Part shown: positions 19,505 through 54,610 of the stretch, piece by piece
How the letters are laid out: each line of letters opens with the position of its first letter
Numbering within the stretch: position 1 is the first letter of the stretch
From: Mediterraneibacter butyricigenes
Lineage (GTDB): Bacteria > Bacillota > Clostridia > Lachnospirales > Lachnospiraceae
Direction of reading: 5' to 3'
Length of the DNA: 64,000 nt
Assembly (NCBI RefSeq): GCF_003574295.1
Contig: NZ_BHGK01000001.1
Span: 1,116,001-1,180,000 of the forward strand
Translations under genes and position numbers: made by a program
Notes under the pieces: model-generated
Seen by the model: only the letters and a program-made list of their open reading frames with translations
What the model was told of the DNA's origin: nothing
Database searches by the model: none

Positions 19505-19549
19505 AATTTTGCCGTTCCTATCCGATACTTGCCTTTGGTATCGGATAGG
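19505..19549 (-). terminator. Terminator after recombinase B
   Basis: GTATCGGATAGG (19538-19549) and CCTATCCGATAC (19517-19528) form a perfect 12-bp stem. On the minus strand it is followed within a few bases by a run of six T residues. It lies 9 bases beyond the recombinase stop, so it is a textbook intrinsic terminator for that gene. Confidence 0.85.
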
Positions 19550-19557
19550 GCGGGCGG

Positions 19558-21300
<1,743 letters not shown>

Positions 21301-28938: not shown

Positions 28939-29751
28939 TTACACGCCCTCCGTGTCTACTTCATATACATCGCAGACCTCATCAGGCTTGAGTTTTAGTC
29001 TGGCAGACAAAAATGCTTCAATATCAAAGGTATTTCGCTTGTCTGCATCAGCTGTGTATTTGAAATTAGGGTGTCTGGTAATGTCATACTTGTCTGAAAG
29101 AAACGGACGCACACCGCGCAACTGCAAGATGCACTTGCCGCCATCCATAACTGCCAGCTCGTCCTGGCTCATCAGCTCTTTTCCCAATTTCTGATAGTTA
29201 AGCGAGTGGGAGGTCTCCCGTCCCCGGCTCTCTCCGGTGTTGTAAGTGTCTATGGTCTCCTTTCCCAGAACAGCCGCCAGCTCTTTCAGCGTTGTTGGCT
29301 CTTTGCCACCCAGGAAGATGGAAGTATCCATATTGCCGATGATGGTATCGGCATTATCTTTGTAAATTGCCTTGAGCTGGCTCTGTGCCTGCAACACCAG
29401 ACAGGCAGAGATTTCACGGCTTCGGATGGTGGCCACCAGCTTTTCCAGCTTCGGAATCTGCCCGATGTTGGCGCACTCGTCAATCAAACAGCGCACATGA
29501 ACCGGAAGCCTGCCGCCATACACATCATCGGCCTTTTCACAAAGCAGGTTGAATAACTGGGTGTAGCACATGGAAATGAGAAAGTTAAAACTGTCATCCG
29601 TATCACTCATAATGAGGAACAGAGCCGTTTTTCTGTCTCCCAGCGTATCCAGTTCCAACTCATCGTAGGATGTAACCTCGCGCAGCTCCGCAATATCAAA
29701 TACGGCAAGACGCGCACCGCAGGAAATCAAAATCGACTTAGCGGTTTTGCC
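28939..29751 (-). pseudogene. virD4: virD4 coupling protein, C-terminal part, cut off by element C
   Basis: The minus strand begins at the junction with GKTAKSILISCGARL and continues for about 270 residues to the natural stop. It includes the Walker B region VRCLIDECANIGQIPKLEKL and the conserved SREISACLVLQAQSQLKAIY and NYQKLGKELMSQDELAVMDG segments of TraG/VirD4 coupling ATPases. An in-frame TGA lies just inside element C, so only an internal start such as the TTG at 29730 could be used. The Walker A half is at 44111-45127. Confidence 0.92.
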
Positions 29752-29804
29752 AGAGACAAATTGTCAAGGACTTTTTAATCAAATTCACAAAAAATCCACA
29801 AAAA

Positions 29805-33434: not shown

Positions 33435-34880
33435 TTACCGCTCCGGCCCCCGGTCGCGGGGCTTGTCCCGTTCCTGTCGGGCCAGTTGGTCGGCGGCCTT
33501 GCGGAGCCGTTCCACAGCTTTTAGCTCCTCCCGCATAGCTTTCATGTCGATGCTGTCCACCTGTTTCTGGGCGGTCAACAGGTCGATCTCACGCCGCCAT
33601 TCCTTCGGGGTGATTGCCTCGCCGCTGTCTTTCAGTTCTTTCAGATACCAGGCCGCCGCGTCATAGAGGATCAGTTCCCGGCTGTGGCGCTGCTCGAACA
33701 GTTCCCGCTTCTCCGGCTTTACCCTGGCAAGCTGCTTGTGGACAGTCTTATACTCGTTGTACTGCGCCCACATCTCCCCGCGCTCGGTGAGGACAGCGAT
33801 CCGGCGCTCAGCCTTGACGATCTTTCCCCGCAGGTCATAGTAACGGCTGTTCATATCAGCGATTTTTTCATGAAGCTGCTGCATAGACTGGATGCCGTTT
33901 GCCTGTAAAAAGCTAAATAGTGCAGCGCTTTCCTGCAAAGCCCGGATTTTACCGGTGCGGGTGCGGGGAGTGTTCAACTGCTGCTGGGCCTCCCACAAAG
34001 CAGTCAAGCTGCTTTGCTGTGTTTGTGGTTTTTCCGCTTCGTCTTTCGACCAACGATAAAGCCGGGTAATGCGGGCTTTGATTTCTTTCAGCAGCTTGTT
34101 GTCGGCAGCGATCTGCCGGTTTACTTCCCCCTTGTCGGTGCGGATGCCGCGCTTCTCCATCTGGCTGGCCGCTGGCCCCAGGTGGACAGAGGGGATTTTA
34201 TCAATGCCCTGTCGCTTGTAGCTGCGGTGGTCTACCAGGGCAGGCTGACCGGCTGCCTCCAACACCCGATTGGTGTAGGCCGCCCACGCTGCCCGCCAAA
34301 TCTCCACATTTCCTTTATCGTTCCAATCGGTTGTATCCTCACGATGATTTTTCCAGCCGCCTTTCCCATCCGGGATACGCTGTCCATTCTCGTCCAGGTC
34401 GTATGCCTTGCGGCACTTTGCGCCCCACTGTCCATTTTCTTTCAGAGGCCGGAGCGTCAGCATGATATGGACATGAGGGTTGCCGGTTCCCTTGTCATGG
34501 ATGGCGAAGTCGGCGCACATCCCCTTGTCCACAAAGTTGTCCTTCACATAGGCACGCACAAGAGCGAGCTGTTGTTCGCCGGACAGTTCGCGAGGCAGAG
34601 CTGCTTCGATCTCGCGGGCAAGCTGGCTGTCCCTTGCTTTCTCGATTTGCTCCACGCTGTTCCAGAGGGTGGAGCGGTCTGCAAATTCCGGCGAGGCGTG
34701 GGCGGGCAGCATGATCTCCGCATGGACAATGCCGCCTTTCCGGGTGTAGTCATGGGTCAGGCCGTCCCATTCATTTGTCAGCTTGGTTCCGCTTCGGTAG
34801 GCGGCTGCGGCAACAGCGGAACGGCCCTCGCTGCGCTTGATGATACTGACGGGAATATGGCAAAAATCTATGGGTGGCAC
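33435..34880 (-). CDS. mobA: MobA/MobL (MobQ-type) relaxase of element C
   Basis: About 481 residues. The nuclease domain contains RSEGRSAVAAAAYRSGTKL, the catalytic-site region KGTGNPHVHIMLTLRPL near residue 115, and DHRSYKRQGIDKIPSVHLG; the C-terminal half is coiled coil. The start is uncertain: AGGAGG lies 8 bases before an ATA (34869-34871), while an in-frame GTG (34878-34880) overlaps the Shine-Dalgarno; no ATG fits. The oriT lies about 150 bases upstream, the compact arrangement from which element A departs. Confidence 0.88.
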   Translation of the reverse strand: MPPIDFCHIPVSIIKRSEGRSAVAAAAYRSGTKLTNEWDGLTHDYTRKGGIVHAEIMLPAHASPEFADRSTLWNSVEQIEKARDSQLAREIEAALPRELSGEQQLALVRAYVKDNFVDKGMCADFAIHDKGTGNPHVHIMLTLRPLKENGQWGAKCRKAYDLDENGQRIPDGKGGWKNHREDTTDWNDKGNVEIWRAAWAAYTNRVLEAAGQPALVDHRSYKRQGIDKIPSVHLGPAASQMEKRGIRTDKGEVNRQIAADNKLLKEIKARITRLYRWSKDEAEKPQTQQSSLTALWEAQQQLNTPRTRTGKIRALQESAALFSFLQANGIQSMQQLHEKIADMNSRYYDLRGKIVKAERRIAVLTERGEMWAQYNEYKTVHKQLARVKPEKRELFEQRHSRELILYDAAAWYLKELKDSGEAITPKEWRREIDLLTAQKQVDSIDMKAMREELKAVERLRKAADQLARQERDKPRDRGPER

Positions 34881-35024
34881 CTCCTTTCGGCGGGGATATT
34901 TCAGGCTCCGTGGAGCCGAACAAACGCGAAGCGGGTGTTTGGCTGCGCGGGGCGCACAAGGGGTTTGGGGAGTGTAGCGCCCCATCGCGGACGAAGTACG
35001 CAACGCCCCCGGCAGGGCGCACAG

Positions 35025-35064
35025 CACCGGCAACGGTGTATAAGTGCGCCCTTGTAAACAAGGG
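35025..35064. other. oriT of element C (MobQ/RSF1010-like nic site)
   Basis: A perfect hairpin CACCG-gcaa-CGGTG (35025-35038) is followed by TATAAGTGCGCCCTT, containing the exact MobQ nic consensus TAAGTGCGCCCT (35041-35052). The stem CCTTG-taaa-CAAGG (35050-35063) follows. It lies between the relaxase start and DUF3847. Element A has the same order at 15861-15906. Confidence 0.88.
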
Positions 35065-36827: not shown

Positions 36828-36840
36828 CTGCCTTTCCTCC

Positions 36841-36922
36841 ATTCAGATTTTTTGGGTAAATCTGAATGGGGCGGCGGAGAACGGCACCGGGGATAAAGTT
36901 CGGGCCATGCTGACCCGATGTT
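36841..36922. repeat. Hairpin plus TCGGG/CCCGA motif shared with element A
   Basis: ATTCAGATTT and AAATCTGAAT (36841-36850, 36858-36867) form a perfect stem just upstream of sigma-like gene 3. The stretch at 36895-36922 (AAAGTTCGGG, CA, TGACCCGATGT) matches 12875-12900 of element A. Both lie at the border between backbone and cargo. No gene is supported in 36828-37104. Confidence 0.55.
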
Positions 36923-41756: not shown

Positions 41757-42110
41757 TCAGCTGCAAATCAGTTCCCTGATTAAAATTTCCTCAATCTGTG
41801 CCGTTAATGTGTTCATCAGCCCCACCCAACGCATAGGGTCACAGGCTTTCAGTTCTTCCGTGACCCCCGTAGTCTCCATCATGTGAGGCAACATAGTGTC
41901 CACACGCTCCTGCGCTGTCCGGTCAATCTCTATCAGGTGTGGATACAGCTTCTCGCTCATCAGCAGATGGTTGTAGAGAATGGGGCGATGTTCCTTTAGG
42001 TAGGATTTTCGCATTCTGCCGTACTTGCCGATAGAAGTTTCCGGCTGTTCAGAAAGTTTTAGGTTGGGTATATCATAATCTCCACAACGAATGTAAGTCA
42101 ACTTACTCAT
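41757..42110 (-). CDS. tnpV: Transposon-encoded TnpV-like protein (element C)
   Basis: A 117-residue TnpV homologue: YIRCGDYDIPNLKLSEQPE, GKYGRMRKSYLKEHRP, and a C-terminal AQIEEILIRELICS. The start at 42110 is preferred over the ATG two codons earlier because GGAG then stands at a workable distance. It lies directly after tnpX, as in Tn4451 and element B. Confidence 0.82.
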   Translation of the reverse strand: MSKLTYIRCGDYDIPNLKLSEQPETSIGKYGRMRKSYLKEHRPILYNHLLMSEKLYPHLIEIDRTAQERVDTMLPHMMETTGVTEELKACDPMRWVGLMNTLTAQIEEILIRELICS

Positions 42111-42136
42111 ATTCATTCTCCTTTGCTTCGTGATGA

Positions 42137-44017
42137 TTAGACTGCTGCGCTGGCTGCTATGCTGCCTTTGTGCGGTTCTTCTTTTGGTAGCTGTCCGACA
42201 GTAGAAAAAACACCTTTTTTCATATCCTCAGCCCGGATCAGGGCTTTCTTAGCGTCCATTTCCGCTTTTTTCTTCGCCTTGATTTTGTCCTCATACTGTT
42301 TCTGTGCGCCGCTGGCTTTCCGCTTCAAATAATTCTGATGAAGCCTGTCCTTGCGTTCTTCTTTTTTCCGCAGTTCTTCCTGTTCCTCCGGGGTTAAAGG
42401 AAGCGGCTGTAAGGATGGTGGGATATAGCGCCCTAAAAAATTGAAGTAGATTTCAATTTCCTGCGTGGTGTCCTGGCTGCCTTTTCGGGCGCGTTCGTGG
42501 ACAAGGATTTTCTCTACAAACTCGTTGAGCATGGTGTTTGTCAGAGTGTCAAAATTCTCATACTTATCAATTAGGGCTATAAATTTCTCTGCGGATTTCT
42601 GGCTCTGCTCATAGCCGGTAACAGCCTTTTCCAGCTCTGCAATTTCAATCTCAAGTGCATCCTGCTCTTTGGCATACTGTGCATCAAGCGCCTTATATCG
42701 TGCATCCGGCAGCTTGCCGAGGGCGTTGTCCTCATAGATTTTGCAAATCAGTTTTTCCAGTTCTCCGGCTCTCTTTTGGGCAGCAGCCAGACGCCTGCGC
42801 TTTTTCGATATATCGGCACTCTGTTGAGCAACCTGCGTCTCCTGAACAGTGTGAATAAATTCCGTCCGGTCATTTCTCGAATATTCAGCGATAGCCCGGA
42901 GCGTGTCGGAAACCAATGTCAGGACAGCACTCTCATTGATACGGTGTTGTGTAGGGCATAGTGTCCCACACGGAACTTTGGTATAATTGGAACAGGTATA
43001 TTGAGAAACCCGCTTGCCATTGTTGGTGCGGTGGACATACATCTTGCCGCCGCAATCGGCACAATAGAGCAAGCCTGTGAGGGGAGCCGCTTCGCCCCAG
43101 CCGTTTGGATAACGCCGTACATTGCTGCGGATTTTCTGCGCCAAATCAAAGGTCTGCTGGTCGATAATGGCTTCATGGGTATTCTCAAAGATCGTCCATT
43201 CGTCCTCAGAAACATAGTGGCTTTTCTTGTCCTTAAAGTGCTTGCGGGTCTTGAAATTGATGGTATGCCCTAAATACTCTCGTTTTTTCAAAATGTTCAC
43301 GATGGTAGATGATCCCCATCCATATGGGTCTTTGATCGGCTTTGAACGGTTCACACCCTCGTTGAAGCGGGCAAGGTGTACGACAGGAATTTCAATCCGG
43401 TCTGTGGATAATTTGCAGGCGATCTGGTAAGGCCCATATCCCTCCAGCGTGAGGGAGAAGATACGGCGTACCACTTCGGAAGCTTCCTCATCTACCAACC
43501 AATGCTCCCGATTTTCATCCCACAAGTAGCCGTAAATCACAGTGCCGGTCAGGTGCTTGCCACTCATGCCTTTTGACTTAAACACAGAGCGGATTTTCCG
43601 ACTGGTATCACGGGCGTAAAATTCATTCATAATGTTGCGGAACGGGGTAAAATCGTCATCGCCTTTCAGACTGTCCACACCATCGTTGATGGCAATCAGA
43701 CGAACGCCTCGCTGCCGCAAAACCTCCATAACTTGACCGACCTTCAGATAGTCGCGTCCTAACCGGCTCATGTCCTTGATGACGATTGCCTCTACACGCC
43801 CTGCCTCCACTTCCTCCATCATCGCCAAAAATCCGGGGCGGTCAAAACGGGTGCCTGAGATACCATCATCGGTAAAGTGCGTAGGGTTTGGCAGCCCATT
43901 CCGGCGGGCAAAATCCTCTAACATCCGTTTTTGGTTGGATATGGAGTTGCTCTCGCCCTGTAACTCATCGTCCCGGCTCAGGCGCTCGTACAGTGGGGTG
44001 ATTTTTTCGTTTCTCAT
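42137..44017 (-). CDS. tnpX: Large serine recombinase of element C (TnpX-like)
   Basis: A 626-residue recombinase. Catalytic Ser lies at about residue 14 in [33 protein letters not shown] near 95, a recombinase domain with GSSTIVNILKKREYLGHTI, a zinc ribbon YCADCGGKMYVHR and CSNYTKVPCG, a coiled coil, the EKILVHERA motif and a basic C-terminal tail. AGGAGG precedes the ATG. Its start lies 93 bases from the right end of the element, and it is the enzyme expected to act on the CC core sites. Confidence 0.94.
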   Translation of the reverse strand: MRNEKITPLYERLSRDDELQGESNSISNQKRMLEDFARRNGLPNPTHFTDDGISGTRFDRPGFLAMMEEVEAGRVEAIVIKDMSRLGRDYLKVGQVMEVLRQRGVRLIAINDGVDSLKGDDDFTPFRNIMNEFYARDTSRKIRSVFKSKGMSGKHLTGTVIYGYLWDENREHWLVDEEASEVVRRIFSLTLEGYGPYQIACKLSTDRIEIPVVHLARFNEGVNRSKPIKDPYGWGSSTIVNILKKREYLGHTINFKTRKHFKDKKSHYVSEDEWTIFENTHEAIIDQQTFDLAQKIRSNVRRYPNGWGEAAPLTGLLYCADCGGKMYVHRTNNGKRVSQYTCSNYTKVPCGTLCPTQHRINESAVLTLVSDTLRAIAEYSRNDRTEFIHTVQETQVAQQSADISKKRRRLAAAQKRAGELEKLICKIYEDNALGKLPDARYKALDAQYAKEQDALEIEIAELEKAVTGYEQSQKSAEKFIALIDKYENFDTLTNTMLNEFVEKILVHERARKGSQDTTQEIEIYFNFLGRYIPPSLQPLPLTPEEQEELRKKEERKDRLHQNYLKRKASGAQKQYEDKIKAKKKAEMDAKKALIRAEDMKKGVFSTVGQLPKEEPHKGSIAASAAV

Positions 44018-44040
44018 AGCTGTACCTCCTGAAACAAAAA

Positions 44041-44101
44041 TGCTCTAAGTGATTGCTTCACTAACCATGACAAAATCATGATTAAGAAGTCACTTAGAGC
44101 A
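44041..44101. other. Inverted repeat next to the right end of element C
   Basis: TGCTCTAAGTGA (44041-44052) and TCACTTAGAGCA (44090-44101) are perfect 12-bp reverse complements, 9 bases from the CC junction. Inside them is the palindrome-like CATGACAAAATCATG. The position between recombinase start and element end suggests binding sites of the recombinase or its regulator, and it also overlaps where the tnpX promoter should be. Confidence 0.7.
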
Positions 44102-44110
44102 TATATCACC

Positions 44111-45127
44111 GGCTGCCAGCTTATATTTCTTATACTGCCGCACTGCGAAGTGGTTTGGCTTTTCCGATTCCAGTGCATCAAACATCAGGTCTACAGGATT
44201 TTTGAACTCCTCGTCATCCTCCCGGACTTCCATGGCGTTGATGAACTCGATGAGGGTGGAGAAGTTTTGCTCCTCCACCGGAGCCTCATAATGGATATAT
44301 CCGATAAGGGCACAGTACAGAAGCGTTTCTGCCTTGACCCAGAAATCGTCTCCGGCCTTGCCTTCGCCTTTGGTATTAGCGATCAGCGTTGTCACCAGCT
44401 TCAAAATATCCTTTTCCGAGTGGATGTATGCAAAGGGGTTATAGTGCATGGACTTCTTGAAGTTGATGGTATTTAGGACCTTGATTCGGTACGGCTCATA
44501 AATGACCTTGCCGTGCTTATCCTTCATGGGCTTTCCGTCCTTCCCCAGCTTGGGCGCACCCCTTTGGAGCATTTTTCCGCACTCCACCAGAATTGTTCCC
44601 TTCGGGTCCGTCACAACATAGGAGCTGTGCATCTGCATCAGGTTGGGTTTCAGCCAGAATCGGGTCTTACCGGAACCGGAGCCACCGATCACCAGCACAT
44701 TTTTGTTTCTGGCGGTCTTTGGGTTCTTGGGGCGGCTGTTCATTGTCAGGCTCTCCGTTTTCGTCAGAATCACGTTGTTCTGAAATACAGGATCAACGTA
44801 AGGTGCAATATCCTCACGAGTTCCCCAGCGGGCCGAACCATATTCCAAACCATGTCGATATTTCTTGGCGTTCTTGCTTTTAAGATACACCGCCAGCCTC
44901 AGACCAACACCGCAGCACAGCCCTACCAACAAGTCCAATGGATGCAGGCTTGGCCAGAAACTTTGCAACGCCCCAGGCAGAACCGCAACCATCGAAAGAA
45001 ACTTTTCTGAAGCATCCGCCCCTTGTGCCATTCGCCATGCCTCTCCAAAATTGGTAGCAAACAGCCCCAACAGGATATACGGCATATTCAGCAAAATGAG
45101 CTTTTTGATGTCCAATGTCTTTTTCAT
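44111..45127 (-). pseudogene. virD4: virD4 coupling protein, N-terminal part, cut off by element C
   Basis: About 339 residues of a VirD4/TraG coupling protein. Two N-terminal transmembrane helices, GLEYGSARWGTREDIAPYVD, Walker A VIGGSGSGKTRFWLKP (near residue 148), and VTDPKGTILVECGKML are present. The frame then breaks at KYKLAAG, where it enters element C and stops after five more codons (D-I-C-S-K). The Walker B half is at 28939-29751. Without excision the coupling ATPase cannot be made. Confidence 0.94.
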
Positions 45128-49599: not shown

Positions 49600-49678
49600 A
49601 CTATATCAGCCCGTTTAGGTATAAGAAAACCCCGGAAAACCTTGATTTTCCGGGGTTTTTGAACCATTTTGATATAGT
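49600..49678. terminator. Bidirectional terminator flanked by inverted nonamers at the ICE-rpsI border
   Basis: AAAACCCCGGAAAA (49626-49639) and TTTTCCGGGGTTTTT (49646-49660) form a perfect terminator usable on both strands; it ends the rplM-rpsI transcript. Around it lie ACTATATCA (49600-49608) and TGATATAGT (49670-49678), inverted with respect to each other. The ICE attachment core probably lies within or next to this stretch, but its exact limits need the other junction. Confidence 0.7.
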
Positions 49679-52232: not shown

Positions 52233-52289
52233 AAAACGGCAGTTCCGCCAAAGATACCTTTCATCGTACCTCACGGGAACTGCCGTTTT
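52233..52289 (+). terminator. Terminator after the GH13 gene
   Basis: AAAACGGCAGTTCC (52233-52246) pairs with GGGAACTGCCGTTTT (52275-52289). It lies 11 bases past the stop and, with A- and T-runs on both sides, can work in both directions against the convergent flavin reductase gene. Confidence 0.9.
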
Positions 52290-54293: not shown

Positions 54294-54610
54294 CGCCCTT
54301 AAAGTCCCAAGACTTTAAGGGCGAATGTCTCTTTCGCGGTACCACCTTAATTCACTGACTGTTTATGATCATCTGTCTCATTCTTTATGATGATCACTCA
54401 GTCTGCCTCTGTCGACAGCTATCACTGTCCTGGCTGGTATAACGTCCGCCACCACGTCGCAGCCTACTCAGAACTTCTTTCACTTCGGTACGATGCTCCG
54501 AGATGTATTCACAGATCCGAATTCCTCTACGCCTCTCACCAACCGGCAACTCTCTGTCTGGTTCTATGACCTGCTACTCTTTCTCTTCCTTGCATTTCTC
54601 AACTCTGTAC
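54294..54610 (-). promoter_or_regulatory. T-box riboswitch leader of tyrS
   Basis: On the minus strand the T-box sequence AAGGTGGTACCGCG (within 54335-54349) is followed by a strong terminator stem CGCCCTTAAAGTC/GACTTTAAGGGCG (54294-54323) and T residues. A GAATACATC segment near 54507 offers a TAC (Tyr) specifier in the expected 5' domain. Uncharged tRNA-Tyr binding would open the terminator and allow tyrS transcription. The exact 5' limit is approximate. Confidence 0.92.

Follow-up and report, generated by a model that had tools for sequence, protein, structure and literature searches.

A perfect inverted repeat beside the right end of element C, a mobile element inserted in the virD4 gene, is predicted to pair in RNA as the base of a long hairpin, and the structure of this hairpin is conserved among relatives of the element. 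We think it moderately probable that the hairpin attenuates read-through transcription, acting like a terminator in the copy studied here, and that it is bypassed upon excision. The element lies in the window, by which we mean the whole 64-kb stretch of Mediterraneibacter butyricigenes DNA that was analysed. The hairpin, its structural conservation, the two ends of the element and the -35 and -10 hexamers that come together when those ends are joined were all computed from the DNA.

From these results we infer the start of transcription, its termination or other damping, and the binding of the recombinase. In the integrated state, the only transcription expected at the recombinase gene tnpX would come from the virD4 operon. 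The read-through RNA would contain both arms of the repeat and fold into the full hairpin, leading to termination or at least hampering expression of tnpX; the termination step is tied to this copy with its T-rich tail. Excision would join the ends and thereby create a sigma-70-type promoter, with TTGACA contributed by the left end and TATGCT by the right end. Transcription from this circle promoter would start within the 5′ arm and give an RNA without the outer stem, from which tnpX could be expressed for re-integration. The recombinase, in turn, probably binds the motif GACTTYTTAATCA at both ends, overlapping the hairpin region.

Element C and its relatives

In 81 of 83 related loci the sequence is common up to a GG/CC core and divergent beyond it, which in the window places the right core dinucleotide, CC on the forward strand, at 44109-44110, the junction with virD4. 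The same CC recurs at 29750-29751, where sequence comparison places the start of the remaining part of virD4; element C is therefore the 14.36-kb segment 29750-44110. Its features are those of Tn4451/Tn6104-like elements. An intact frame for a TnpX-like large serine recombinase of 626 amino acids (42137-44017, minus strand), with Resolvase, Recombinase, Zn_ribbon_recom and DUF4368 domains, is adjoined by tnpV (41757-42116, minus strand; PF14198, E 1.8e-42). A MobA/MobL relaxase gene (33435-35033, minus strand; PF03389, E 1.7e-94) also lies within the element, which has a 2-bp core at both ends and is inserted within traG/virD4. The 5′ part of the interrupted gene (44111-45127, minus strand; PF02534, T4SS-DNA_transf) enters the element, and its truncated frame stops at a TGA at 44090-44092 on the minus strand, within the 5′ arm of the repeat. 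The same TGA ends 71 of the 72 virD4 frames found at such junctions (GDICSK-stop and variants).

Relatives of the recombinase are encoded at 395 places in the contigs scanned. The best 80 of the 395 were used, together with eight more from viral contigs, leaving out L065, L087 and L090-L092, which lack the protein start or match only distantly. A leader with the core and the hairpin sequence is present in 81 of the 83 loci examined, in 39 distinct forms. When the window is counted with 80 of these loci, 72 of 81 junctions have upstream a virD4 frame with the same orientation as tnpX; the other nine junctions lie outside virD4 and still have the hairpin. Loci L062 and L063, whose recombinases are 81% identical to that of element C, have neither core nor leader and seem to lie directly behind another coding frame. 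In L212 (G076:C49), 68% identical over 466 amino acids, TATGCT and the motif GACTTATTTATC are kept and the outer hairpin is lost.

A covariance model of the hairpin matched 11 of 291 Clostridia genomes at E 0.01, only three of which, M. butyricigenes itself included, reached at least 69 bits. The sequences from seven of the eight weakly matching genomes, and one more, were inspected and taken to be other hairpins beside ribosome-binding sites and not relatives. G121 gave a further weak match, which comes from the same hairpin read on its other strand.

The hairpin and its conservation

The repeat consists of perfect 12-bp arms, TGCTCTAAGTGA at 44041-44052 and TCACTTAGAGCA at 44090-44101, around a 37-base centre that includes CATGACAAAATCATG at 44066-44080. 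All of this is as the preliminary description had it, as is the nearness of the repeat to the CC core, the arms ending at 44101, or at 44102 when the flanking A/T pair is added to give a perfect 13-bp arm (44040-44052 and 44090-44102). Perfect 12-bp inverted repeats with a spacer of up to 60 bases exceed chance in the window (12 start positions, in six places, against a mean of 0.4 and a maximum of 3 in 30 first-order Markov simulations), and the repeat at 44041-44101 is not the sole case. The other perfect repeats with short spacers lie at 52233-52289, 49626-49660, 54294-54324, 36839-36870 and 19517-19550.

When read as minus-strand RNA, the sense of tnpX, the sequence folds into a long hairpin (44040-44102) with the arms as its base: a 13-bp outer stem made of the 5′ arm (44090-44102) and the 3′ arm (44040-44052), an inner stem and a small loop. 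The fold has a predicted energy of -33.8 kcal/mol (z -6.1), and none of 200 dinucleotide shuffles reached this stability. Immediately 3′ of the 3′ arm is the T-rich tail TTTTGTTTC (44031-44039, minus strand), followed by AGGAGG (44025-44030, minus strand), the ribosome-binding site of the recombinase gene, which stays outside the hairpin in the predicted fold and is thus not sequestered in read-through RNA. A known RNA family was dropped as an explanation, since the Rfam 15 covariance models had no hit in 43800-44400 at an E of 1 or less.

To the hairpin of the window we aligned L001 and 32 of the 39 distinct leaders (34 rows; L006, L019, L023, L035, L049, L069 and L077 are near-identical to others and were omitted, and L125, the start of which is doubtful, was dropped). 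In this alignment 98.8% of cells are paired, as compared with 97.0% in shuffles, of which none of 500 was as high; changes on both sides occur at five pairs (13 such cells), and on none of five measures did any of the 500 shuffles match the observed values. Shifting the partner by one to three columns brings pairing down to 31-55%. The outer helix is paired in 99.8% of cells and the inner helix in 98.0%. Of the 408 cells of the outer helix, 398 are Watson-Crick, eight are G-U (at six pairs), one is a mismatch, one is a gap and none is A-C. Compensatory changes include G-C to A-U in a clade with AAATGA/TCATTT, U-A to C-G in L089 and L001, and U-A to A-U in L074. The sense strand is more stable than the antisense strand in 35 of the 39 distinct leaders, which are related sequences and not independent. 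Arms that change together and tolerate G-U on the sense strand bear, to judge from the alignment, the mark of folded RNA and not of a protein-binding DNA palindrome, because G-U is preferred to A-C on one strand.

As a terminator, the copy in the window has a score d of 6.8, where a value above 0 counts as a pass. A pass is seen in only 10 of the 43 leaders, and a clade with the tail ATTTCATG scores far below 0 (below -40), so termination by itself does not suffice as an explanation; read-through termination is the most likely effect in this copy, and other copies may damp expression by another effect of the hairpin. Scores for the antisense strand are too low, since the tails there end at the core. 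A scan of the tnpX-sense strand for consensus terminators listed none, perhaps owing to the limits that the scanner sets on loop and stem.

The predicted promoter of the circular form

When the two ends of element C are joined in silico, TTGACA and TATGCT come to lie 17 bp apart. The -35 half, TTGACA, comes from the left end (29762-29767, minus strand) and the -10 half, TATGCT, from the right end (44098-44103, minus strand), where it overlaps the base of the 5′ arm. A -35 and a -10 on opposite ends, about 17 bp apart, make a predicted circle-junction promoter of the Tn4451 type; the Tn4451 circle is reported to form a promoter (Lyras and Rood, 2000). The preliminary description had placed the repeat over the promoter of tnpX, and this holds if the promoter in question is that of the joined ends.

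Both halves recur in relatives. TATGCT, which matches the -10 consensus at four of six positions, is found in 41 of 43 leaders, with TATGTT and TAAGCT in one each. The pattern of the left end, with up to three mismatches, is present in 46 of the 49 genomes searched; the -35 in 32 left ends (30 and two more) is TTGACA in 22, TTTACA in eight, and TTGACG and TTGACT in one each, always equally far from the core. Several of the same genomes also have a sister left end, TTGATGAAAAAGTCCTTGACTT, which in L114 likewise stands ahead of virD4 sequence and probably belongs to a related element family with the same target.

In the integrated state virD4 provides ATATAA at the position of the -35, and at a spacing of 17 bp 71 of the 81 integrated junctions match TTGACA at only two of six positions. 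With spacers of 16-18 bp allowed, seven of the 81 have a -35-like hexamer with four or five matches. A consensus promoter scan of the integrated junction region found no promoter.

A start 5-9 nt past the -10 would fall at 44089-44093 (minus strand), within the 5′ arm. RNA folded from such starts has none of the 13 outer pairs and keeps the inner hairpin, at about -18 to -20 kcal/mol. Given this predicted start, circle transcripts should lack the 5′ arm, and read-through RNA from virD4 should have both arms.

The terminal motif and putative recombinase binding

The preliminary description had proposed that the 12-bp arms bind the recombinase, and comparison of the two ends of the element led us to drop this as the primary reading. 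At a distance of 17 nt from the core, each end has the motif GACTTYTTAATCA, in opposite orientation: as GACTTCTTAATCA, a putative half-site inside the hairpin, at the right end (44079-44091, minus strand) and as GACTTTTTAATCA at the left end (29769-29781, plus strand). The two copies are identical at 12 of 13 positions, whereas the 17 bases between core and motif, where the arm lies, agree at only 7 of 17 and the 28 bases beyond the motif at 6 of 28. The shared recombinase site is thus likelier to be this motif, whose contact with the arm is confined to the arm's last two bases, and GACTTYTTAATCA is likely, on this comparison, to be a recombinase half-site. The coupled changes of the arms and the sense-strand G-U pairs in relatives likewise oppose the arms as a protein site, as does L212, which keeps the -10 and its version of the half-site yet has no hairpin. 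Since the half-site sits inside the hairpin just downstream of the -10, a recombinase bound to the circle could possibly repress the promoter. The idea of autorepression may in this way survive through the half-sites and not through the 12-bp arms.

Element B and other recombinases

An analogous hairpin (21182-21234, minus strand) precedes the recombinase gene of element B, with GACAGCC starting at 21182, GGCTGTC starting at 21228 and TGGTATAAT between the arms; the 110-nt leader has a z of -3.87, and a terminator tail is missing. This repeat had been described as analogous but unrelated: its sequence is indeed unrelated, and the layout, with the promoter inside the hairpin, is the same. Among 25 relatives of the element B recombinase, eight that are at least 80% identical (L236-L243) have strong hairpins with changed 5′ arms, 16 at 45-50% identity have weaker hairpins (-8 to -22 kcal/mol) and L244 gave no frame.

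A search for DUF4368 in 79 genomes, 37 of which had a match, gave 49 regions with frames of about 500 amino acids or more and no stop. The survey does not include element C, the family member G121:C1:96138, G090 (too near the contig start) or shorter and broken frames. L187 and L215 have too little upstream sequence, which left 47 leaders, 44 of them with distinct N-termini; L203, L205, L219 and L234, with doubtful starts, were kept. The mean z of the leaders was -2.49, as compared with -1.12 in 250 of 279 control genes (Mann-Whitney p 4.8e-6). A z of -2 or below combined with at least 18 pairs across the predicted start was seen in 16 of 44 leaders and 17 of 250 controls (Fisher p 8.7e-7), and in 15 of 23 and 5 of 41, respectively, of those with a good -10; these thresholds were chosen post hoc, several of the 44 are related, and the controls are mostly neighbouring mobile DNA, at least one being the leader of a family C member. 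Tested singly for spanning pairs, only 10 of the 44 leaders reached p 0.05, and sense and antisense strands did not clearly differ (sense favoured in 18 of 29 structured leaders, p 0.059). Among 13 recombinase leaders from plasmids and phages, z was -2 or below in five and not in eight, the TndX leader (L134, z -1.11) being among the eight. The layout of a hairpin over the start is thus common among DUF4368 leaders and not universal, because many recombinases, that of L212 included, are without a hairpin.

Two of the related recombinases, L123 on a Campylobacter coli plasmid and L127 on a Klebsiella plasmid, lie near aminoglycoside phosphotransferase genes; the leader of L123 folds into a long hairpin with no T-rich tail behind it, and that of L127 has no hairpin of note. 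The recombinase leaders of L139, from M. butyricigenes itself, and L132, on the Enterococcus faecium plasmid p5_70kb, are identical over the stretch compared, which suggests recent exchange of an element between M. butyricigenes and Enterococcus.

Discussion

Several other explanations of the repeat can be weighed against a read-through attenuator. That it is a chance or decaying palindrome without function might seem plausible from the five further places in the window with perfect 12-bp repeats, but conservation with compensatory changes and the stability of the fold make this very improbable. The palindrome might instead be a DNA operator or accessory site for the recombinase, coupling excision with autorepression. 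It adjoins the core and covers the predicted circle promoter, and the 5′ part of the hairpin holds the motif that is common to both ends (12 of 13). On the other side, the left end has no copy of the arms (7 of 17), and departures from pairing in the outer helix, eight G-U cells against no A-C, show an asymmetry that is unexpected for a DNA palindrome; L212, moreover, has the -10 and the motif without the hairpin. We consider an operator unlikely on this balance, and we are a shade more doubtful that the hairpin chiefly serves the circle transcript, with an inner stem-loop near the 5′ end that protects the mRNA or tunes its translation and outer arms that merely extend it. RNA from the predicted start does still fold, at about -19 to -20 kcal/mol, but a role in such RNA leaves unexplained why the outer helix, which it cannot form, is the better conserved of the two (99.8% against 98.0%).

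Read-through from virD4 could also act as an inducer: ribosomes at the TGA in the 5′ arm would mask that arm, and transcription would then enter tnpX. The position of the TGA as the end of 71 of 72 virD4 frames speaks for this, as does the lack of any further promoter in the scan of the integrated junction region. Against it, the frame continues past the arm in L089 and in a Kurthia relative (L124), and the nine junctions outside virD4 have the hairpin nonetheless. We give this reading only a slim chance, and the same slim chance to its consequence, namely that expression of the conjugation operon leads to excision of the element and repair of virD4. The explanation that we prefer is a read-through attenuator that resembles a terminator in element C and is disarmed by excision.

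The survey raises the wider possibility that serine-recombinase elements have repeatedly, and with unrelated sequences, set their promoter in a hairpin with the 5′ arm upstream of the start. The 5′ end of the RNA would then tell transcripts that enter from outside apart from those begun at the promoter of the element itself (in element C, the integrated from the circular state), only outside transcription would be silenced, and the arrangement would amount to a general read-through lock for large-serine-recombinase elements. We regard such generality as tentative and rather doubtful.

Elements that sit in a transcribed gene with the recombinase gene in the same direction face constant read-through. 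If our interpretation is true, a hairpin that is disarmed by a promoter made upon excision is a very compact sensor of topology, and could explain how elements widespread in gut bacteria stay put yet re-integrate once excised. It also points to the bases to omit or keep when such recombinases and their attachment sites serve as tools.

Protection from external transcription is a feature of Tn10/IS10, where read-through RNA both contains an arm that is missing from the element's own transcript and sequesters the ribosome-binding site. Element C resembles Tn10/IS10 in that, from the predicted start, the 5′ arm would be in read-through RNA only. It differs in that AGGAGG lies outside the hairpin and in that the promoter exists only upon circularisation.

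The nearest relatives by description are Tn6104, which sits in traG/virD4 of a Clostridioides difficile element and has been shown to excise to a circle, and Tn4451/Tn4453. In the consulted parts of the published accounts, these share with element C a TnpX-type serine recombinase, TnpV, MobA/MobL, a 2-bp core and a cargo of ABC transporter and sigma-like genes, and Tn6104 shares the insertion in traG/virD4 as well (PMC3158075; PMC5704250). Unlike for element C, those parts of the Tn6104 and Tn4451 accounts mention no promoter hairpin, the comparison being one of descriptions.

For the damping of read-through, the nearest measured precedent, as far as the consulted part of its description goes, is ICEKp1, a tyrosine-integrase ICE of Klebsiella, in which read-through that originates at a tRNA promoter is attenuated by stem-loops in the 5′-UTR of int, and the excised form uses a different promoter (PMC13023037). 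The likeness to element C lies in integrated-state read-through damped by leader stem-loops, with a different promoter after excision, attenuation having been measured in ICEKp1 and being predicted here. The recombinases are of different classes, and the two elements have no family relation. In the same account, the promoter of ICEKp1 comes from its 3′ end, and the stem-loops are relieved by a 15-bp stretch, whereas in element C the start of the promoter would cut off the 5′ arm. TnpX-type elements, circle-formed promoters and attenuated read-through in an ICE are thus already known. A search of an open-access library with few subscription papers gave no hairpin over a serine-recombinase promoter, and what appears new, as far as such a search can show, is a conserved hairpin whose 5′ arm is omitted from the transcript by a promoter that excision makes.
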